A stretch of DNA of 64,000 nt, from positions 1,060,604-1,124,603 of the forward strand of contig JAAOMT010000295.1 in the NCBI GenBank assembly GCA_016748015.1, written 5' to 3'. The DNA comes from Geosiphon pyriformis. Its lineage: Eukaryota > Glomeromycota > Glomeromycetes > Archaeosporales > Geosiphonaceae. Below the pieces are notes generated by a model that made no database searches, was not told where the DNA came from, and saw only the letters and a list, made by a program, of their open reading frames with translations. Both the position numbers and the translations under genes were made by a program. How positions within the stretch are numbered: the stretch's first letter is position 1; each line of letters begins with the position of its first letter. Positions 4,594 to 55,514 of this stretch are shown one piece after another.

Positions 4594-4700
4594 ACTCTCG
4601 TAATGATATCCCGATTTAGAAAGGAGGTGTTTCATTTTAAATTTTAAATTTAACTTGCTCATTTTTGGCAGTAAGCATTTTGCCAAAACTCTCCTCTGAA

Positions 4701-5351
4701 ATGAATAATGTCAATTTTCAAAGTGAGGATCAATCTCCTTCATGCTCAAACTTTTACGAACCTGATGATAGACCCTTATTTCCACCAGTTTTAGTAGCTT
4801 CTGAATTAGTTACCACAAAAACACCTCCTAATGGATTTTTAACTTACCGTAAGGCTCTTGTTCGAAATCTGAAAGCTAAAGGGAAAAAAATTCATCAAGC
4901 TCGTATCTCACAATTGGCATCTTTTCTCTGGAGCAAAGAGCCAAAACATGTCCAGTCAGCTTATAATGATTTGTCAGAAGAAGTGAGAAAAATTTGGCTG
5001 GAAAGATCAATGCATTCAATTCATCCTTATGATCCAGAAAAAAAAAGAATGAAACATAGAGCTTCAAAGAAAAAAAAATCATCATCAGGAATATATAAAG
5101 AAACACCTTCGGTTCAATGTCTTGATAATGACATTGAACAAGATGCTGCAGCTGATGCTGCGGCTGCTAGCATATCTGAAAACGTATATCGTGAGATAAA
5201 TGATTTCTCTAGCACTATGTCAGATGCCGTACAAACAGATGGAGGCACCGAAGAAGAAAGAATAGATGAGGTGGTGGTATTAAATCTATTTTCACAATAC
5301 CCTCATCAAGACTTTCTTGCAGAGTTAGGACTCTCAATTTATTATTTCTAA
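4701..5351 (+). CDS. HMG-box protein 1 (MATA_HMG-like)
   Basis: Single-exon gene encoding 216 aa. The start is the first in-frame ATG at 4,701; codons upstream belong to the open frame but lack an ATG. Residues about 41-102 form an HMG box of the fungal MATA/Ste11 type: a PPNGFLTYRKAL opening, then ARISQLASFLWSKEP, then a third helix with YNDLSEEVRKIW. Such boxes bend DNA in the minor groove, and arbuscular mycorrhizal fungi carry dozens of copies. A basic stretch follows (KKRMKHRASKKKK, about 114-126), probably a nuclear localisation signal and DNA contact. After it comes an Asp/Ala-rich segment (DAAADAAAAS) and an acidic tail. The role is probably transcription factor; whether it is mating-related cannot be told. 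The two HMG genes in this window are very different outside the box. Confidence 0.85.
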   Translation: MNNVNFQSEDQSPSCSNFYEPDDRPLFPPVLVASELVTTKTPPNGFLTYRKALVRNLKAKGKKIHQARISQLASFLWSKEPKHVQSAYNDLSEEVRKIWLERSMHSIHPYDPEKKRMKHRASKKKKSSSGIYKETPSVQCLDNDIEQDAAADAAAASISENVYREINDFSSTMSDAVQTDGGTEEERIDEVVVLNLFSQYPHQDFLAELGLSIYYF

Positions 5352-17207: not shown

Positions 17208-18144
17208 TATTCCTCACCTGTTTAGCCACCACGCTCATCAGTGATCAATATCGTGACGATTATCCCATTTCATTTTCAACCCCCCGGATTTATACGATTC
17301 TTTTTTTTTTTTAATCAGACATTCTTTTTTCTGTCAGCAGAGTACCATCTCTCTTTTTCTCATTTCATTCTCTGTCAATTTTTCCTAACCAGAAAATAAT
17401 TTTCTTTCACCTTCTAAAATACATAAATTCAATTAAATCTTTCCTAATTGGCAAATCAAACAACGGTTTCAACTTTTGAAAGGTGAGCTAATTTTCAAGA
17501 AAATTATTAACTGCCCAGAAAACAGAGTTTCATTCACCGAATTCACATAAATGAGGCAGTAGATTTCTTGTTGGATAAATCTTTAATTCGGCAATAATTA
17601 TTATCCACGATTATTCATAATCTTTTTGTTTTCCTATTTTTTTTTTATTATTATTCACCTCCTGATCATTTTTTTTTTTTTTTTTGAGCTTTTCACCTTT
17701 GAGACTTCCTATTTACAAACCCAATTTACATTCTTTATTTATATTATAAAAAATGTTGATTACTTGCTGCATCATTCACGCTTAAACTCTGAAATGCACA
17801 GTATCTGCAGTGTAAAACAATCATCAATATATATCGGAACAAATTACACAATCTTCGACATTCAACAATAGCCTTTTAACCCTTTGAAACATACGCCACT
17901 TCAGTTTCAAATTAACAGATAAACACACACTCACTCACATTCACAAGTTGAATTAAAATATATATAAAAAAGATTTCATTTTTTCATTCGTCAATAACTT
18001 ACTCTTTTCTCTCTTCTGATAAAAAGTTGACAGGATCAAGAAAATCAAAAAAATTCAGTCTGCATTGTTAGCTTCTTTTTTTTTTCCAAAGAAAAGCTGA
18101 ATACACTTTCAAGAAATTGAAAGAGCTTCCCTCGAATCAAGAAA

Positions 18145-19113
18145 ATGGAATACCCAAAAACAAAACTCATGCAACGTTATCGACTATGTGAAGCGCCAGC
18201 TTCTCTTTTACAACTCATTACAACTTCTAACAAAGAAGCCGATGAAATACTTGAAAATTCTACGATAATGACACCACCTTTAACCCCAACTACCACGACC
18301 ACTTCTGTATTTTCACTTAATTCCAATGAAGAAGGCACTAAACAAGAAAATCGTGTTGGTCCTTTACGGCATAACATTGGAGGCCGTCGTCGTAAAAATC
18401 CTTACCCAATACGTTCCCCTGACACAAATTCTGAAGGCATTACCTTGAATGTGGACATATACTCAGCATACATACATAACCCGATCTCATTAAGAGCTCC
18501 TGCACTTTCAGCCAACTCTCACAAGACGTTCTCTTCAGCATCCTTGAATTGGACATCTGATTCCGGTGAATCAATAACAAGTTCAAGAAATGCTGATATT
18601 TATGGAAATTCTTGTCATAATAACACTTCTCATGTACAAACTCGAAATCGACGTCAACGACAACACACCACACAAAGAACAAGGCGAAGTAAAGCATTGG
18701 GAAGAGTAATCGGTGCAAGTAATAATGGAGGTGATTCAAACACAGTTCGAAACCCTCCTCCATTACCCCAACAAGAATGGCGTGTATTGACAGAAAAACT
18801 TGAAAGTTTAGGCTTGGATAATTCCGTGTTGGAAGGAGAAGTACCCAAAGTCACATGGAAAGGACCGTTGATGCAAATATCAAATTTACCTCATTACGAT
18901 TATTTGCATTCAACGGAAACTGTATTAGCGTCAACATTACGCTTGACCCCAGCACAATATCTCACCTCTAAGAGTTCAATTATTTGTGCTGCGCGACGTT
19001 ACGAAAAACGAATGATGCCATTCAGAAAAAGTGACGCACAACGCTTGCTCCGTATCGATGTCAATAAGTCGAGTAAGCTATGGGAATTTTTCAGGGGAAT
19101 CGGTTGGATCTGA
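18145..19113 (+). CDS. SWIRM-domain protein of the Fun19/Laf family
   Basis: Single-exon gene of 322 aa from the ATG at 18,145, the first in the frame. The N-terminal two thirds are disordered: a TPPLTPTTTTT stretch near residues 45-55, a basic GGRRRK patch near 80 and an Arg/Gln-rich segment (RNRRQRQHTTQRTRRSK) near 165-185. Residues about 241-322 form a SWIRM domain: LTPAQYL (267-273), FRKSDAQ (293-299) and DVNKSSKLW (305-313), ending at GIGWI. This arrangement, with a lone C-terminal SWIRM after a long disordered region, is that of yeast Fun19/YOR338W and fission yeast Laf1/Laf2. SWIRM domains bind nucleosomal DNA, and the Laf proteins associate with a histone deacetylase complex. The product is therefore inferred to be a nuclear chromatin factor. 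A pyrimidine-rich leader lies upstream. Confidence 0.92.
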   Translation: MEYPKTKLMQRYRLCEAPASLLQLITTSNKEADEILENSTIMTPPLTPTTTTTSVFSLNSNEEGTKQENRVGPLRHNIGGRRRKNPYPIRSPDTNSEGITLNVDIYSAYIHNPISLRAPALSANSHKTFSSASLNWTSDSGESITSSRNADIYGNSCHNNTSHVQTRNRRQRQHTTQRTRRSKALGRVIGASNNGGDSNTVRNPPPLPQQEWRVLTEKLESLGLDNSVLEGEVPKVTWKGPLMQISNLPHYDYLHSTETVLASTLRLTPAQYLTSKSSIICAARRYEKRMMPFRKSDAQRLLRIDVNKSSKLWEFFRGIGWI

Positions 19114-34366: not shown

Positions 34367-35074
34367 TTAAGGGTACATCCATGCGGCATGATCATTCCAT
34401 ATTTCAGAGGAACTAAAAGTTAAAGGTTCAATCATATTAGAAATGACTGGCTGGAATGTCAAATTCGTAACCATTTCAGTTGTATAATGTTCTTCTGGTG
34501 AAGGAAAATTGAAATTTAAAGAAGTTTGTAAAATATTCTCTGAGGCTCTGTTATCAGGTCTGTTCAACAAAGAAACTTCTTGAATGGGATCAAAATGAAT
34601 AAAGTCCTGTTTGCTATTTTTTTTCTTTTGTTCCTCTAACCTTCTAAATGTGAAAGTTTCATGAACTTTATTGGCAAAAAAACGAAATGAATTTTTATAA
34701 CTTTCTGATTCCTCTTCCCATGATTTAGCAATCAATTTTGAGGCAACAACCATTTTTTGACGATAACCAAATTTTTTTAACTCCCCAAGATACAATTTTC
34801 TATAGATAAGGAAAGCATTGCAAGTTTTTTTGCTTTCTTTTTTACGTGGCATGAACTCTTCAATATTCAGAGTTTCAGCTGAAGGAATTGAAATTCGAAG
34901 TGATGTTTCAATTGTTTCCTGAAATTTTTGAGAAATTTTCATCTCTTGCTTTTCCTTTCTATTTTTTCTTATACGAACGGGTGGTAACGATAGTGAAGTC
35001 TTTGATCCCCAATTTGATTTAGCGTTGTTGGATAATGTTTCTGACGAAAATTTTTGATTTGAGAAATTTTCCAT
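34367..35074 (-). CDS. HMG-box protein 2 (MATA_HMG-like)
   Basis: Single-exon gene of 235 aa starting at the ATG complementary to 35,072-35,074. A basic N-terminal region (VRIRKNRKEKQEMK, about 33-46) precedes an HMG box at about residues 82-140: KKTCNAFLIYRKLYLGELKK, then VASKLIAKSWEEESESY, then SFRFFANKVHETF. It is followed by RRLEEQKKKNSK. The usual Pro-Pro-Asn at the start of the box is replaced by Thr-Cys-Asn, and the second helix begins QKMVVASKL, so the box is a divergent member. The C-terminal ~80 residues are hydrophilic and lack known motifs. It is likely a nuclear DNA-binding protein. It lies 29 kb from HMG gene 1 in the opposite orientation, with little similarity outside the box, so a recent duplication is unlikely. 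Confidence 0.85.
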   Translation of the reverse strand: MENFSNQKFSSETLSNNAKSNWGSKTSLSLPPVRIRKNRKEKQEMKISQKFQETIETSLRISIPSAETLNIEEFMPRKKESKKTCNAFLIYRKLYLGELKKFGYRQKMVVASKLIAKSWEEESESYKNSFRFFANKVHETFTFRRLEEQKKKNSKQDFIHFDPIQEVSLLNRPDNRASENILQTSLNFNFPSPEEHYTTEMVTNLTFQPVISNMIEPLTFSSSEIWNDHAAWMYP

Positions 35075-38010
35075 TGTAATTCAGTATAATTTTTGTTGAA
35101 ATTTTAGCAATCCTATTTATAATGCTTGTGTGTGGTGTTTAAATTCCGAAATTTTAATTTTTAATTCAACAAAATAGTCAATGACTTTTGTTTACAATAC
35201 TTTACAATTCATTCTGAATTATAACCAAAATGATTTATCCCTATATAATTTGTGAAAATGAGAAGCGAATGAAAAATTTCTCAATTCTACTTTAAAATTT
35301 TCTAAATTTTAATCTCTCCAAAACTTTGAATTAATTAATTGATTGATTGATTTTATCAAGGTTTTTATGCCAAGATTTTTTCTTAATATGTAATTTATCA
35401 CTGGGTTGTAACAAATTTATGGAGAAGAAATTCCAGTTTTAGATATTCTATTTTAAGATAATATTGTATTGATTTCAAAGATTTAATGATGTAAATTTCA
35501 AACAAACCTCATTATAAATAGAACAACAACTAATCCTAATCCTAATAATATTATTATTATTATTGTTGTTGTTGTTGTTTTGTTTTTTAAAAAAAATTAA
35601 TTGATTTTAATTTTGGAAAAAACCTAGATATTTTTCAAAGTTCCTGAAACAATGTAAGAAAAATCATTTCCCTAATAAAATCTTTTCTTTCTAGATAATT
35701 TTACATTTTAAAATGAAAATTACTTTTTGAGAATTACCCTAAATCCGAATACAAATATGCAAGGGAAATAATTGAAAACTCCTATTTTTTGCAAGAAAGA
35801 AAGTTTTTTTTTACCAATTAAATTTCATCTCCCTTTCTTATACCCGTTTCAGGAACCTTTGTTGAAATTCATTCTCACAAAGATCTCATCCGAATTCTAT
35901 AAAAAGTAATCAAGGCTGTTTCTCAGCCACAATTAAATCACATACGATTTTAGGAAACATGTCATTCCCTGCAAATCTGAATAAAAGTTAGAATTTATCT
36001 TTTCATATGAAGTGATTGATTTCGAGATAGTTGTTCTTATAAGTACTTTAGTTTCTAGATTTAAATACTCAAGATTTTAGCATTTTTCTATATTATAAAA
36101 TTTGTTTCCAACTTTATAGTTTATTTTTATTTAGTGTGACAATAAATATTATGATAAAGACTAAATTCCAGTCAAGAATTTCTAATGATTTCGGGTAAGA
36201 AAGTTTAAATTTTTGTTTTCCTTTATGATTCCAAAAGTTCTTTTCGACTCTCAATAGAAAATTACAGTTGGTAAAAGCACATATAATTTGGTTTAATAGC
36301 AAAAAGCTCCTTTAAAGATTGAATTACAACTTTTGTGCCTCTGCTGTAAAATCTTGGAATCAAAGTTAAAATTATTTATATTTCAATAAATCATTTTTTA
36401 AATAAATTATAAGATCAGTTGTCAATAACCTTTTAGTTAATTTTATCCCTCCTAAAGAAATAACAAAAATTATAAACTGATTCAAAGATGATTTTTACAG
36501 CTTTGGGAAAAGCTCTTTATATACAAAATAAAGAGAGACATTAATTAGATCAATAATTAGGCCAAAAAACAGGTCAGTAACTTATAATTGTAAGAATAAT
36601 TTTTGATATTTATTATAAGCTTCGATAATCATTTGAACTAGTTAACTTCCAAAGACAAGGTTCTTGATTAAAAAAAAAGAATATAGATTTTGAAATTATA
36701 AAAATCATCTTGAGCCATTGAAATATTCATGGAGATTTAAAGTGAATTTATAGTTAAAATAGTAGAAATTTCATCAGACTTTCACACTTCTTTAGCTTTT
36801 CAAATACATAAATAGTATAGTCAACCCTAGATATTTATACAAATATAATTCATTTATAAACTTTGAAACATAAGTACATGTACTTAAAACTCACATTATT
36901 GAAAAGAAGACCTCATCAAGTTTATCAAATTATTGTCAATTTTTGCCTCCTTGAAAGAGGCTATGCCTAAGCTTGATAAATTTTTTGTCAAAGAAAATTT
37001 CTGTTCATCTGCTAAAATGCAATAATGTTTGTTTTAAATATCTTTTTCAAACATTAAAGAACTGTAAAATTTTTTTATTTATTCCGAAAATTTCAGTGAT
37101 TGACAAACTAATAAAGCGTCGAATTCCAATTTTTTTCTTTTAAATTATTAAAGCTGTAAAAGGTCTTCATATGAATCTCAAACCAACTATTAATTGAAAT
37201 GTATCTTTCTGAAGGTTTTTAAGAATTAATAACACGTGATAATGAATTTTTAACTCAATAATTTAAGATTGATTGTTAAATTATTATTTTTTAACAATTA
37301 AACATAAAGACTGTTAGGATAATATTTCGGTATCTTTTTCGAAGAAATAGCTTTGTTTTTTTGCCCATACAAATAAACCATTTCTTCTAGAATACATTGT
37401 GTATATTTCAATAGAAATATTTATTCCTTCATCATTTTGGAATTTTTTTTACTTTTGAATGGAATTTGAATATTTTCCGGATTGGATTAATCAAATAAAA
37501 TTTCTTTTATATTGGTTTATTTTTAAAGCTCCAGTATCTTCTTTATTTTCAAATATCCATCTTTGTAAAGAGTGTATGAATACAAACCCTTTTTTTGATT
37601 AAAAATTCGAGACATTTAGAATTTTAATATCCATTTTATATATAATGTAGTAAGAAAAAAGTCGAGATATTTAGAATATTAATATCCATTTTTTATATAA
37701 TGTAAGAAAAAATTGGCATTTATACTTAATTTGATTAGTCCTAAAGTCTTTTCTTTGAAATTGGTAAAAAAGAGCGTAACGCTGAAAAAAGGGAAAATTG
37801 TTATTATTTCAACTCAAACCAATATTAAAAACAATTTACTTTAAATAATTAAAACAATCATCCTTTTAGTATGTACAACTCCTAAATTTGAATTTTATGT
37901 TAAAGGGGAGTAAATGAATGGTCAAAACATTTTGAAACTTAACGGTTCAATAATCAACTTTTTATAATTTATAAAATGAAATTTTTATTTAAAATTTTAC
38001 ATTCAAATTA
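35075..38010. other. Intergenic, AT-rich
   Basis: No gene is seen. It contains a TTA/TTG compound microsatellite at about 35,548-35,580 and a ~55-bp tandem duplication at 37,606-37,713. Confidence 0.5.
37606..37713. repeat. Tandem duplication, unit about 55 bp
   Basis: Two adjacent copies share cgagacatttagaattttaa / cgagatatttagaatattaa, then tatccatttt, then ataatgta and taagaaaaa. They are about 85-90% alike by eye. Confidence 0.85.
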
Positions 38011-39503
38011 TTAGATAGAATTGTATTTTTGAATTCCGGTTTCTTCAAATCCTTCACATTCCCCCATTAAAGTACCAAAATAAGGTCCTTGATGTATAAA
38101 ACTATCTGGAAGATTAGAAGAACTTTCGGCAGCATTACACTTCTATTGGTTAAATAAATAAACATGAACAAATATTAGATATAGAAATATTTGAATATTT
38201 CATTTCATTTCAGAAAAACTTACTGGATTTTCACCGAGCCTTAAGAATGAAGGGATTAAGAAATTGAAAATTTTATTTATTTTTCCTTTACATAAATAAT
38301 ACTCCAACTCAATTTCATCATTCGCATCAATGCAATCACAATTATTGTCAGTTGGCTTTATCCATATCTCAGTCTGAGGATGTTCCATAATTGCTAAAGG
38401 ATTAAAAGATTTTCGGGCAGGAAATTGAGGAAAATAGTCATTTCCATAGGTCACTCGATTTGTATCGCCAACTTTAAGGTTGACAAATTGTGCGAATTTT
38501 CGATTTCCGACTCTTGGGGCGCCAAATGTTATTAGACGAAGTCCAATATCCTCATAATTACGCGAATGAAAGTCTATTTCTTTATGAATGCTCCATAATG
38601 CGCTTGCTAATGTTGCGTATGCTAATATAAAAAATTATTTAATTTACATGCTAGCTAACTTTCTGAAATCAAAATTTTCAAAAATTTAAATTTAATATAC
38701 AAACCACCACCAACAGCATGCCCAATAAAATAAATTTTAGAAATGAAAAGTTCTTTGCGCTGCTCATGCATATTACGTGAAATTTCTTGGTTAATCAATG
38801 GCCACATTTTCTTAACATCATCAAACCATTCTTTATCCACCAATACAAAAGGTTTTTGTTTTTGTCCCGGATACTTGAATGGAACAAGCTCTGGCTTTCT
38901 TGAAACCAATTCTGCCTTTGTCAATCTCTGAATTATTTTGTTAAAATGCAAGTAAGTTAGTGAGAATCATAAATATTCCTAGTTCGAAAGATTGTTTTAC
39001 CTTTCCTTTAAAATATATCACAATTTTTGAAGAAGAAAATCGAGAACCCGATCCCGATACATAAAGTCCTCCATTGGCTTCGGATGAAAAAAGTTAGGAT
39101 CAAACGACGAATAGATTGATTCAGGTAATATTATAGATCATTTTTTACCTACTATATCTCTTTTTCCAACTACTCTTCCAAAAATATTTTTATATGGCAT
39201 GCAGTAACCATAATTTGCTATAAATGCTAAGATTGGTAAATCTGCAAGTAAAAGGTTAGAAGATGAGATTTTTGTTTTTGATGAATCAAAAGGAAGAATC
39301 GACCTCTTTGAATCGGAATTTTTTTTTTTGCCAATGGAATAAATAATTCCTTTTGAAGAATTTTGATGAATAGCTGAATTCTGCTGGGTATTTACTGAAG
39401 GAACGTATTTTTCATTTGACATCAAAGCTTCAATATGTTTAGGGTCGATAAAAGTCAATACAAAAAATGGTAGAAACAATATTGTCCCAATCAAAAGTTT
39501 CAT
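38011..39503 (-). CDS. Secreted class 3 lipase homologue lacking the nucleophile Ser
   Basis: Five exons on the minus strand: 39,503-39,149, 39,077-39,001, 38,927-38,705, 38,621-38,224 and 38,142-38,011. The phases agree and give 394 aa. Introns are 71-83 nt. Residues 1-18 (MKLLIGTILFLPFFVLTF) form a signal peptide. A low-complexity linker leads to the alpha/beta-hydrolase fold of fungal triglyceride lipases (Rhizomucor type). The nucleophile elbow reads GHAVGG (213-218): Ala215 stands where GHSLGG-type enzymes have catalytic Ser. The remaining framework is intact: ITFGAPRVGN (249-258), the catalytic Asp in GNDYFP (Asp280) and His in HQGPYFG (His368). Codon GCT differs from a Ser TCT by one base. 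The protein should fold and be secreted but should not hydrolyse by the usual mechanism; binding or decoy roles are possible. Everything except activity is well supported. Confidence 0.92.
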
Positions 39504-44746: not shown

Positions 44747-47310
44747 CTATCCCTCAAATCCGTCGAAATACGTGATTCTCACTCGAACCTCACCAACCTC
44801 AGCATTAACGAGATGCTCCATAAATTGTTTTGCTTTTCCATTAGCTGACTCTCCTTTTGTTTCAACCTTTACAATTTTTGTAAACGGTTTTGTGACTTCA
44901 AACATTTTTCCCTGTTTATCATCAGCTGCAAATCGCCCAATATCAAGCTGAACCTCACCAATCACTATACCCTTCTCATACAATTTCATAGCGATATTTG
45001 ACTTTTTCGGATCCCGAACATAGAATACATACTCCTGTCCAGCAATTGTATCAAGCGAATGCTTGATTACCGAATCAGAATTTTGATTTCGCTTCCCAGT
45101 TTTCAGATCAGAGAATATCGTCTTTACACATCCTCCATGAACTTCACGCTTTAAACTAATTTCTATGATTTTCACTCGTAACATTCCCATAAAGTATGAA
45201 TTTTCGGGATAAAGAATTGAATTATACCATTTTTTTACCGGTTTATCCTCAGATAAAAGAGTGGTGTTTAGTTTATGTGATGAAAACATACGTAAAAAGT
45301 ATTTTGATTCTTGTCCTGGCTCAAATGTCGAAGGAATTAACACATATCTGCCTGATTTAAGCCGTAATCTTGCTGTTACTTCACGCGCATTACTGTAAGT
45401 GATTTGCCCGGCAACTTCATAAGTTGGTTGATGTATACGATATTTGCGATTTTCTTCGACTTTGAGACATATGAAACCAATAGTCAGATTTAAACCACCT
45501 TCGAGTCGTTTTAGACGGGTGTCTTGTTGCATTAAGGCGGTTATTATTGTAGTTGGCTGGCAGAGTGTGAATGCATACTGTGGATTTTGGTAGAATGTCT
45601 CAAGAAAATTTATACAACCACCTGCTGTTGAATCTCTTTTTGACCATGCTCCCGTAAAAGATTGACTATACCATCGTGAGCCAAGCGTGAACCTTGTGGT
45701 GTTTAAATGACGTGCAATCGTGAGAGTTGAAAAGTTTGCTAAGAAATCTTCAGTCGACTAAAAAGAAAGATTGAATTGCGGTATATTCAGAGAATGAAAA
45801 CAAGTTCTTTAAACAATCACTTCTAGATAATCATGCCTCTTGAAATTGTACAAACCATCCAAAAATCACCGTCATCATCCACTTTCACATTGAACTTTTT
45901 CCGTTGACTATTATTGATGGTATTCCAATTGGGCGAATCGTCTGACCATGCGCCATTCCATTCGCCCTGACCCCATGGATTATGAAGCTTTAAGAGAAGT
46001 GTTGTTTCGTTTCTACTCGGATCCGAATGTTTTAAATTTCGAATTTTTGTAATCCCATAAGCGTGCTGTGAATTAAGATAATTTTTCAAAACCTCGAATT
46101 AAGATTGTGAGGAAAGAGAAAAGTATTCCCGAATTCCTTCAATAAAAATACACACCCCAACAATAAGTCCATTTGATAGCCTCTGTTCCAATATCTGTTC
46201 ACCCTCTTGTACATTTATTGAACAACTCATTAATCCACCTTCTTTATTTGCCTTTTTTAAATGATCCATCAAGCTTTCCTCGGTCATTCCATTAATTTTT
46301 CCCTGACTATCTCGATCCAACTCGATTGTTTCTGGTACAGTACCTGTTAAATCTACCATAGCATCTGAGGCAGAACCAGCTTCAAGAGCCTCATAACATC
46401 CACATAGTTTGGCATAGGCTTTTTCTACAAGAGCACACCATACTTCGTTTGGATTTCGGGCATGAGCATAAATTAGATGGTTATTAACGGTGGGTAGATA
46501 GTCGTCGACAACTACTTCAACCCATTTACCGAAACGATAAAACCTGAAACGAAATATTCCTTTATGTGGGAGTAAGGTTATTTTGTTGGTTTTTAGTTTG
46601 AAGATTAAAATACTTCAAAGAATATGAAGGAAACCAATAGAATACCTGGATGACGGTCAATGTCATTGAAAAATGAACCAGTATTCACAAATCCTGGGTC
46701 ATCAGCATGAACCCAGTCCTGTAATCGCCATCTTGGTATGACTTTGTGTAAAAGTGAAGGGTGTGCTGCGAGGACTGATAATGCCGTGACAAGCCAACAG
46801 TTTCCTACGACACTTAAGGTTGATGATAAAAGTTTAAGTTAATTAGATTAACGGCAATGAATTGCTAGGAAAATATAATATATGCGAATTCTTAAATCGA
46901 ATAAGGGAGCAAAACCCTCTTATACTGATATTTGCCCCGATTTCAGAATTTACAGTAAAATAATTTAATGGCCACCTACCCTTGCACGACTTCTGGAGTC
47001 GCCTGACCATTCTCATAGACAAATAAATGTGGCTTTTTGCAAATATCCTATTCATTTTTGAAACATCAATGTTAAGTATTACAGCTTAACCAGTTGAAGC
47101 CGAAAAGTCAAAATTTGCCCGTAGGATGTCTAAAATGATCACCTTGACCCGTTTCCATTCCACGGTTCCCTGAATGTTTAATCGATTTACTCGCCAAAGA
47201 GATTTTTCTTCTGGTGGGAAGGTATCATCATGGAAATTCTGACCAGTACTCCGACATTTCAAGGCGAGACGTTTGTAATGTTGGTTATTGAATTTTTCGT
47301 AACGTTCCAT
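44747..47310 (-). CDS. Calpain-family cysteine protease
   Basis: Six exons on the minus strand: 47,310-47,143, 47,047-46,980, 46,812-46,646, 46,559-46,156, 46,065-45,856 and 45,757-44,747. All phases agree and give 675 aa. The N-terminus has FHDDTFPPEEKSLW and VEWKRVKDICKKP, the classic calpain entry. The catalytic triad is complete: Cys84 in GNCWLVTALSVLA, His270 in GHAYGITKIR and Asn298 in LHNPWGQGEWNGAWSD. RFYRFGKWVEVVVDD at about residue 140 is the conserved strand between them. Domain III follows, with GGCINFLETFYQNPQY, and the last ~150 residues resemble a C2-type beta domain (VRVRITYFDGFEG). No penta-EF hand is present, as in fungal and atypical calpains. It should be an active cytosolic, calcium-regulated protease. 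Introns are 86-167 nt; one splits the codons for Gly and the catalytic His exactly. Confidence 0.94.
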
Positions 47311-53430: not shown

Positions 53431-55404
53431 CTAGTGACTAATTCCCTCATTTACAGAAGAGTTAGTCGCAGTTGGAGTCCCATAAAATATCTCTTCCAAC
53501 GTTTTATTATCAAAAAACCTTTTTTCCGGATCATATTTCGCGCGAACTTTTTCAAATATCTGTACACGTTCGGCCAACTGTTCACGTAAGTAAGGTTTTA
53601 TACCGGGAACGTATTCATATAATTTACCCCAGTGAGGTCTATTTCGTGAAAATTTGGGCATGGATCAAAAAATTTTTGAATGATGAATTAAATAAAGATA
53701 CTTGACAAGTAATTCAATGTTTGAAACTATAATCTGTTGAACTCTTTACCTTGCACGGTACTTTTCCATCCATCTTTTAGATAACTCTGAAGAAAATTCG
53801 TCATAACCAATGGTGTCTTTTACAGAAAGAACTTCCATATGTGCATATAGTGCATTGGGATCTTTATCGTATCCCGGAGATAAAAGGGAGCTTGATGATT
53901 TGACGATTCGCATTTCGGCCGTGAGGTTGCATGGGAATTTACCCTCTCTTGCTAACTCATAAATCTGTAAAAGGCCGAATGACATATTAAGATTTTGAAT
54001 TGCTCATATGAATTTCATGACAAAAACCTAATGAAAATGATATTAGCTATTTACCCTCGTGACAATGTGACGAAATTCCAAAGCAATATTCTTAAAATCT
54101 TGATCTACTTTAATCGAAAACTCCAAATCTTTGATTTGAATATTTTCAATTCCAGCCTGATAATGAATCGCATCAGGTGCTTGGAGAACAACATCCGACG
54201 GTCTACTTATTGGCGCCGCTTTCCATAGCAAATGAGAGATATGTGGGGTTGCTTCAGGGTGTTTTACAATAAAATCATATAAATGATCACCAAATTTAGT
54301 TCCTAAATTTTCAACAATTTGTTGTTTTTCCAGTTTTAATTCTGATTTGGTCACTGGCTCCTCAGTCCTGACCCATTGTTTGATCCATAATTTGTCGGTG
54401 GAGTCGTCGAGTTCATTTTCGTTGAATGGCCAGTAAAATATTTCAACGCTATCTGAGGTTTCCACGAGTTTTTTGAGTTTTGGGCCGGTGAGCCAGGTAT
54501 TGAGTTGTGGCTGGGAATCAATCATTCGAAGACTAAAGATTGGTTCGACACGAAATGTGAGGTTATAAATGATTCCAAGGAGTCCTTGGGAAAAGATTTT
54601 TAACTCAATAAATTTATTAAAGTTCAGAAATATGTCTCAATATCCTTAATAAATACCTAAGCTGACTCGCGCAGCACTCATCTCAATAGGATCCTTTTCG
54701 TCGCTAAATTCGTGCAATTCACCATCCGCGGTAAGTATTTTTAGCGCAATAACGTTATCTGAAATACCGCTCGAATCAACTTTAGCACCATGCGAGCCAG
54801 TCGATACAACACCTGAAGCTCTAACAGAATCCAATACAGTCATTGAATTGAAAGCTAATGGTGGATTATGCGACCTAAGGGCATCGTCCATCTGCTTTAT
54901 TGTTGCTCCTGATAACATAAAAATTAATAAAACCCAGATTAATAAATAGTTTAAGGTCAAATAATCACATTTATTAAAACTCATGAATCTTAAACTTTCA
55001 ATTATTGAAGAAGAAAACTCACCAGCTTCAGCAGTAATAACCCATCCAAACTTCTCGCTCTTTTCGATATTCACCTTATCAAGTTTTTGCACAATTACCA
55101 AATAATCATTGGTGACTGATAAAGAATTGAAAGTATGTCCTTGGGCCACACATCGAATTTTTTTTCCATTCTTCTTAGCCTTCTTCACAATATCTTTCAA
55201 ATCTTGTAAGGAACGCGGTCGAAAAATAAGTTCCGGTTCAACAGCAATAGTCCCGGCCCAATTCTCCCATCTTTTTTCATGACTTGGGGTTAGATGACTT
55301 TTAGTTGCTGCAAAAATTTCTTCTGTATGTTTCCCGAATGTATCTTTATGTTTTTCGAACGATTTTTCAATTTTATCTTCGAGTTTTTTGATCAGGGCTG
55401 CCAT
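53431..55404 (-). CDS. FAD-linked sugar-1,4-lactone oxidase (ALO/GULO family)
   Basis: Five minus-strand exons: 55,404-55,023, 54,908-54,657, 54,584-54,055, 53,964-53,750 and 53,638-53,431. Phases agree and give 528 aa. Introns are 72-114 nt. The FAD-binding PCMH-type domain starts with FRPRSLQDLKDIVKKAKKNG. His90 in AQGHTFNSLS aligns with the residue that covalently holds FAD in yeast Alo1. GVVSTGSHGAK and the preceding AGATIKQMDDAL complete the nucleotide-binding part, and RPHWGK (460-465) is the family's C-terminal active-site signature. Such enzymes oxidise D-arabinono- or L-gulono-1,4-lactone to erythroascorbate or ascorbate and produce H2O2. A ~40-residue lysine-rich N-terminal extension has no clear presequence or membrane helix. 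An alditol-oxidase-like substrate cannot be excluded. Confidence 0.92.
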
Positions 55405-55514
55405 TTTTTAGAATTATGAGCAATTAAAGAAATCTAGAGCTGAGCGAAATAGAAACCGTGAGCTCAACGATAGATCTTATAAATTAAACGATGGGAATAT
55501 ATTAGAAAGCAATT

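Follow-up and report, generated by a model that had tools for sequence, protein, structure and literature searches.

A gene in a 64-kb stretch of the Geosiphon pyriformis genome (contig JAAOMT010000295.1, positions 1,060,604 to 1,124,603; the whole stretch is referred to here as the window) encodes a class 3 lipase-like protein whose nucleophile elbow reads GHAVGG, with alanine where the nucleophile serine would stand. The question raised by this locus is whether the change is very recent or whether a secreted pseudoenzyme is being kept, and the original prediction had left both options open. We found that most elbow sites of this genome have Gly or Ala at this position, a situation that the original prediction had understated, and that the loss of the nucleophile is old in the lineage of the window gene. 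On balance, we think it somewhat probable that the window gene belongs to a large set of paralogues encoding secreted-type proteins of the class 3 lipase fold, that the majority of these proteins no longer have the nucleophile serine, and that they are maintained as pseudoenzymes, probably for something other than ordinary fat splitting.

We rebuilt the gene model and obtained five exons on the minus strand (38011-39503), joined by GT-AG junctions in compatible phases and encoding 394 amino acids. The five intact exons and the PRVGN strand (residues 254 to 258) that had been predicted were all recovered, the predicted residue numbers of the elbow, Asp280 and His368 agreed with the model, and the Ala215 codon, GCT, is indeed one base away from the serine codon TCT. 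The N terminus (MKLLIGTILFLPFFVLTFI) is hydrophobic and signal-like by direct reading. The protein matched Pfam Lipase_3 (PF01764) over residues 171 to 288 (61.1 bits against a cut-off of 22; E 1.4e-16), its single Pfam domain. It therefore belongs to the family by profile but lacks the serine of the GxSxG motif. Asp280 aligned with the Asp of THTNDIVPRLP in a solved lipase, which we take to be the catalytic Asp. His368, in FIHQGPYFG, fits by motif the histidine before YFG that we take to be the catalytic His near the C terminus of these enzymes; the PDB alignment stops before this residue. His299 (EHPQTEIWI) was also considered as the catalytic His and rejected in favor of His368. The oxyanion-side position, presumably Ser or Thr in the FRGS/T motif of class 3 lipases, is occupied by Lys144 (FKGK) in place of the Thr of classical copies (FRGT).

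The fungal class 3 lipases of known structure (the 269-amino-acid lipase 1dt3/1tib and its 1gt6 form) were homologous to the window protein over residues 184 to 325 (best E 1.5e-11) and share with it the elbow, the PRVGN strand, the Asp and the H...E-WI motif. Unlike them, the window protein has Ala for Ser, the oxyanion-side Lys, a longer variable N terminus and a set of CxC...C cysteines. In the alignment, Ala215 paired with the Ser of GHSLGG (u4392, 1dt3) and with the Ala of GHALGG (u6908, 1gt6). The latter chain, the best PDB match, is presumably an engineered Ser-to-Ala mutant solved with oleic acid; it is like the window protein in having Ala at the nucleophile position but is a mutant of one enzyme and not a natural family.

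To place the window gene among its paralogues, we searched the genome of the window (124.7 Mb in 406 contigs). Exons 3 and 4 of the window product gave at least 165 matches when counted exon by exon, so that one gene can yield two, and many close paralogues had a GHAIGG elbow. We then took a census of elbows with exact degenerate DNA patterns for GH-x-[NTN codon]-GG, each with a reversed-pattern control. This gave 246 GHG sites (control, 9), 40 GHA sites (control, 4) and 36 + 14 = 50 GHS sites (controls, 2 + 1), such that 286 of the 336 elbow pattern sites of the genome had Gly or Ala at the nucleophile position. Subtraction of the 13 control matches from the 286 gives an estimate of about 270 lipase elbows without Ser, against about 40 with it, a figure that leaves out elbows deviating from the pattern and other residues such as Cys. 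One copy of the latter kind (L003, with its elbow near C301:186457) reads GHCVGG and retains the catalytic-type His. A broader, any-codon elbow pattern was too noisy to be of use (695 matches against 416 for the control). Elbow sites were often clustered on contigs (for example, C96, C100, C122, C252, C301, C330 and C394, the last with four GHA copies).

A lipase exon lay downstream of the elbow in 30/30 GHA, 20/20 GHG and 25/34 GHS loci tested, although the profile used to detect this exon was made from the same set of loci and the check is therefore partly circular. All nine misses were Ser loci, which are probably other hydrolases or chance matches. In 72 of the 75 lipase loci, a splice donor lay at the identical place past the elbow, and the intron of the window gene likewise begins immediately after it. 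The Ser-bearing paralogues that the original prediction had proposed looking for thus exist. Because the genome holds 40 GHA elbows (against 4 for the control), a sequencing error at the window codon is not credible.

We next asked how old the loss is. Loci were deduplicated by identity of the elbow plus the last eight upstream residues, a procedure that could merge true near-copies, leaving 87 rows, of which 78 were intact and 75 had enough of exon 3 to enter a tree. With the elbow residue masked, the rows nearest the window gene were all Ala rows, the best identity being 53%, and the window gene lay inside starred (supported) all-Ala clades of 5, 8, 10 and 12 rows; those of 5, 8 and 12 recurred, again starred, when four long-branch rows were removed. 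An equal-rates reconstruction gave Ala (0.997) at the base of the 12-row clade. A change that is recent or private to the window gene, or an error, could draw only on the single base that separates GCT from TCT; with 286 GHA and GHG elbows in the genome and supported clades that are Ala throughout, we regard this explanation as ruled out by the census and the tree, and we give it almost no credence. Of the two options offered by the original prediction, therefore, the recent change fell.

Deeper in the tree, the same reconstruction gave Gly (0.87) at the base of a 51-row clade. The sample used for ancestral states was enriched in Ser (38 of 50 GHS sites against 24 of 246 GHG sites), the rows chosen as outgroup failed to form one clade, and the tree was left at its given root, which is uncertain; the case for a Gly ancestor, and with it the idea of a regained Ser, is weak. 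On the first tree, no fewer than 10 changes of the Ser/non-Ser label are required, of which starred branches force 5; on the second tree, from which the long-branch rows had been removed, the minimum is 9, with 7 forced. Because several changes are required, the history must include repeated losses of Ser, or repeated loss and regain. Two Ser copies, L072 (C301:211438) and L103 (C96:232664), with GHSIGG (TCA) or GHSLGG (AGT) elbows, are nested among GHAIGG or GHG copies, as a result of either independent losses around them or a regain of Ser. A further sequence, L022/L070 (C266:14039), was similar to L072 and too short for the tree; both L022 and L072 have Asn on the oxyanion side.

We then examined which other active-site residues had been kept, by realigning exons 3 and 4 of 54 Ser-less and 20 Ser rows. 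The elbow glycines and His are conserved by choice of the search pattern and carry no evidential value. The Asp280 column was Asp in 53/54 Ser-less and 20/20 Ser rows (in an earlier alignment, the Ser row L080 had Ala and the Ala row L065 had Glu there). Arg274 and Glu303 were each present in 54/54 and 20/20 rows, and Trp305 and the noncatalytic His299 were each present in 53/54 and 20/20. The catalytic-type His was found in 31 of the 37 Ser-less copies in which the exon 5 motif was located (Ala, 23/29; Gly, 8/8) and in 17 of 19 Ser copies. These counts depend on the motif (GPY, GLY or DIY after His), which was widened after a first look. No such motif turned up for 4 Ala, 14 Gly and 3 Ser rows, and for 13 of these Gly rows and all three Ser rows too little DNA was available.

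The oxyanion-side residue after F(K/R)G, which we read confidently at scores of 4.5 or more, was Thr in 4/4 classical Ser copies (L004, L005, L007 and L008) and was never Ser or Thr in the 23 Ser-less copies, of 58 rows, that could be so read (14 Ala and 9 Gly), where it was Lys, Asn, Pro, Met, Glu, Asp or Val. It was Asn or Glu in 4/4 confidently read nonclassical Ser copies; therefore, even the readable Ser-bearing members of the expanded family differ from classical lipases. No Ser/Thr/Cys column specific to the Ser-less copies was found in the aligned exons 3 and 4. Six columns (T147, T250, T276, C313, C315 and C329) held Ser/Thr/Cys in 60% or more of the Ser-less rows, and each of them was likewise Ser/Thr/Cys in 56 to 100% of Ser rows. 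Within exons 3 and 4, this speaks against the shifted elbow with another Ser as nucleophile that the original prediction had named as a possible objection.

These observations bear on whether the Ser-less copies might still be enzymes, in which water or a group of the substrate would act together with the Asp-His pair in noncanonical hydrolysis, acyl transfer or another reaction. The near-equal retention of Asp and His in Ser-less and Ser copies speaks for such an activity, as does the constraint on the Ala or Gly itself in the window clade and in one Gly group (see below). The missing oxyanion-side Ser/Thr in every readable Ser-less copy, the lack of a substitute column and the replacement of the His in 6 of the 37 copies speak against it, and we consider it unlikely.

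To determine whether the Ser-less copies are maintained by selection, we fitted codon models to the window clade (12 or 8 rows), to three further groups (c5, Ser plus Ala with two Ser rows; c6, Ala plus Gly; and g5, Gly) and to four classical Ser lipases. The models were self-written, with branch lengths taken from IQ-TREE and free only in a single common scale factor; the likelihood-ratio values are therefore approximate. Under M0, the ratio of nonsynonymous to synonymous rates (dN/dS, or omega) was 0.28 (12 rows) or 0.36 (8 rows) for the window clade, 0.56 for c6, 0.64 for c5 and 0.35 for g5, compared with 0.10 for the classical group. The original prediction had suggested a dN/dS check, and these values point to constraint in the window clade. 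Under M1a, 40 to 67% of sites in the expanded groups fell in the constrained class (w0 of 0.05 to 0.11). In the window clade, the whole GHAVGG elbow and Asp280 belonged to this class (posterior of 0.99 to 1.00); in the 12-row set, Ala215 and Asp280 did so with a posterior of 1.00 (w0 of 0.084). The elbow residue was constrained in g5 as well (posterior of 0.91).

A further possibility is that the family is decaying and mostly functionless, a product of birth and death. The closest listed pairs of the expanded groups had dN/dS values of 0.46 to 1.25, near 1 for some copies, compared with 0.20 to 0.26 in the classical group; 9 of the 87 rows were broken or fragmentary; and two more, L041 (Ala) and L069 (Ser), fell below the 30-bit limit and were removed ahead of the count of 87. 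Against this stand the M0 values (0.28 to 0.64) and the w0 class (0.05 to 0.12) of the expanded groups, the near-invariant Asp, Arg, Glu, Trp and Cys columns, and the finding that broken or fragmentary rows were no commoner among Ser-less rows (3/58) than among Ser rows (6/28), with the caveat that these labels were partly set by hand and that short stretches may explain some of the Ser fragments. Frames were intact in most family copies examined. We consider general decay very improbable.

Some positions evolve fast. Addition of a class with omega above 1 (M2a over M1a) gave 2dlnL values of 13.6 for c6, 19.3 for c5 and 19.5 for g5, and 0.0 for the classical group; with two degrees of freedom, the 5% limit is about 6.0 and the 1% limit is 9.2. 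In the window clade, the values were 8.8 for 12 rows and 5.4 for 8 rows, the latter missing the 5% limit. Gene conversion or errors of alignment could make the fast class look larger than it is, and the posteriors were computed from fitted values. The fast-flagged sites lay outside the elbow and the Asp motif. Such a pattern would fit secreted effectors or decoys that bind proteins on a lipase-fold scaffold, lipid binding being incidental, and plant EDS1 was a weak sequence relative of the window protein (best E 0.009). EDS1, PAD4 and SAG101 are Lipase_3-fold plant immune proteins with noncatalytic roles and a second domain, whereas the window protein has a single Pfam domain and a signal-like N terminus. 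A scaffold of this kind has no obvious need of the old active-site residues, which are constrained here, and we think this explanation quite doubtful. Dipteran yolk proteins offer another parallel, being abundant, secreted and of lipase fold without the nucleophile; they belong to another lipase family and comprise few genes.

With its homologous domain, its missing catalytic residue and the selection indicated by these approximate models, the window protein qualifies as a predicted pseudoenzyme. The part of the original prediction that spoke of a secreted pseudoenzyme being kept therefore stood, given the intact exons, the M0 values of the window clade, the constrained Ala215 and the retained Asp and His; what did not stand was the picture of one odd gene, since the family numbers hundreds, mostly with Gly. 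As we see it, most family members would have given up both the nucleophile (for Gly, and for Ala in the window lineage) and the oxyanion side chain, and the Ser-less proteins would carry out no ester hydrolysis by the usual mechanism. The retained fold and Asp-His pair may then serve as a binding pocket for acyl lipids in extracellular capture, shielding or delivery. Selection would preserve the surroundings of the former active site, with diversification elsewhere in the protein; the fast sites perhaps reflect diversification of the bound ligand or of a partner-facing surface. Acyl-lipid binding seems the most likely role of the Ser-less family, judging from the fold and from 1gt6.

Several observations weigh against maintenance as lipid-binding pseudoenzymes. 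Ser is present in about 40 family copies. The six His replacements (Asn, Asn, Gln, Lys, Lys and Met) include two, in L013 and L024, within the 12-row clade of the window gene itself, and of the five rows (4 Ala, 1 Gly) with enough DNA and no exon 5 motif, some may have lost it. The elbow residue varied, with unclear constraint, in c6 (posterior of 0.57) and c5 (0.16), and the dN/dS values of the close pairs could partly reflect relaxed constraint. A protein that only binds would not need to keep both Asp and His, and their retention agrees equally well with an activity of unknown kind; the choice of lipid as the ligand derives from the fold.

A bolder version of the pseudoenzyme reading is that some 270 secreted lipase-fold proteins of one genome descend from a common ancestor that had already lost the nucleophile (weakly, to Gly), with later switching between Gly and Ala and a few nested Ser copies, the Asp-His pair being kept for a noncanonical activity or for extracellular lipid capture or delivery and the surfaces being under positive selection. 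We offer it as a tentative possibility; if it were true, these Ser-less copies would, to our knowledge, form the largest family of pseudo-lipases.

It might be objected that all this is ordinary, in that annotation-based lipase counts include Ser-less copies and the inactivity of many of these may be familiar to specialists. In a 2025 comparative study (PMC12574304), Glomeromycotina genomes had 189 lipases on average; extracellular lipases are named elsewhere among the typical pathogenic effectors that such fungi lack (PMC4746824); and two putative triglyceride lipases of Gigaspora rosea are expressed in planta (PMC4771724). The passages of these three papers that deal with fungal lipases do not discuss the active site, including, in the relevant passages of the first, that of the lipases counted. 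Among the matches listed from the open-licence PMC literature, no title or abstract start concerned Ser-less class 3 lipases in fungi. We find it very doubtful that the matter is already known.

The exons of the window gene and the other coding features noted in the window are collected below. The latter comprise two HMG-box-like open reading frames (ORFs), with an HMG_box match (E 1.2e-6) and a weak MATalpha_HMGbox match below its cut-off, a calpain-like gene, an ORF that looks like a sugar-lactone oxidase by eye, and a SWIRM-domain ORF.

Table 1. Features of the window gene and other coding features of the 64-kb window
Feature	Position	Strand	Content
Exon 1	39149..39503	-	Residues 1-118: start codon, hydrophobic signal-like N terminus, variable Ser/Asn/Lys-rich stretch (gene model and direct reading)
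Exon 2	39001..39077	-	Terminates in KIVIYFKGK; Lys144 at oxyanion-side position
Exon 3	38705..38927	-	Terminates in nucleophile elbow GHAVGG, residues 213-218
Ala215 codon GCT	38715-38717	-	Position of nucleophile Ser in class 3 lipases
Exon 4	38224..38621	-	AYATLASA helix, FGAPRVGN strand, Asp280 (GNDYFPQFP), conserved His299-E-W (EHPQTEIWI)
Exon 5	38011..38142	-	His368 (FIHQGPYFG), putative catalytic His; stop codon
HMG-box-like ORF	4641-5351	+	HMG-box-like
HMG-box-like ORF	34367-35080	-	HMG-box-like
Calpain-like gene	44747-46614	-	Peptidase_C2 and Calpain_III ORFs
FAD_binding_4 ORF	54043-55407	-	E 3.1e-18; adjacent ORF without Pfam match
SWIRM-domain ORF	18121-19113	+	E 6.2e-11

The lipase counts of fungal genomes are taken as a measure of digestive or lipid-scavenging capacity. 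Should ordinary ester hydrolysis be beyond most of the class 3 "lipases" of this genome, that measure would be misleading, and a sizeable family of secreted type, diversifying and with a lipid pocket, awaits a function. Markers sought in the genome to place the organism gave one 18S-primer-like site with one mismatch, one Hint match and no FAS_meander match, the controls for the last having given no signal either; they are too few to mark it as an arbuscular mycorrhizal fungus. Were it a symbiont dependent on lipids, Ser-less lipase folds would be obvious candidates for proteins that capture the lipids of the host or shield them. With the Asp nearly complete and the His mostly kept in the absence of Ser, the family also provides a clean test case for the role of these two residues in a fold without a nucleophile.
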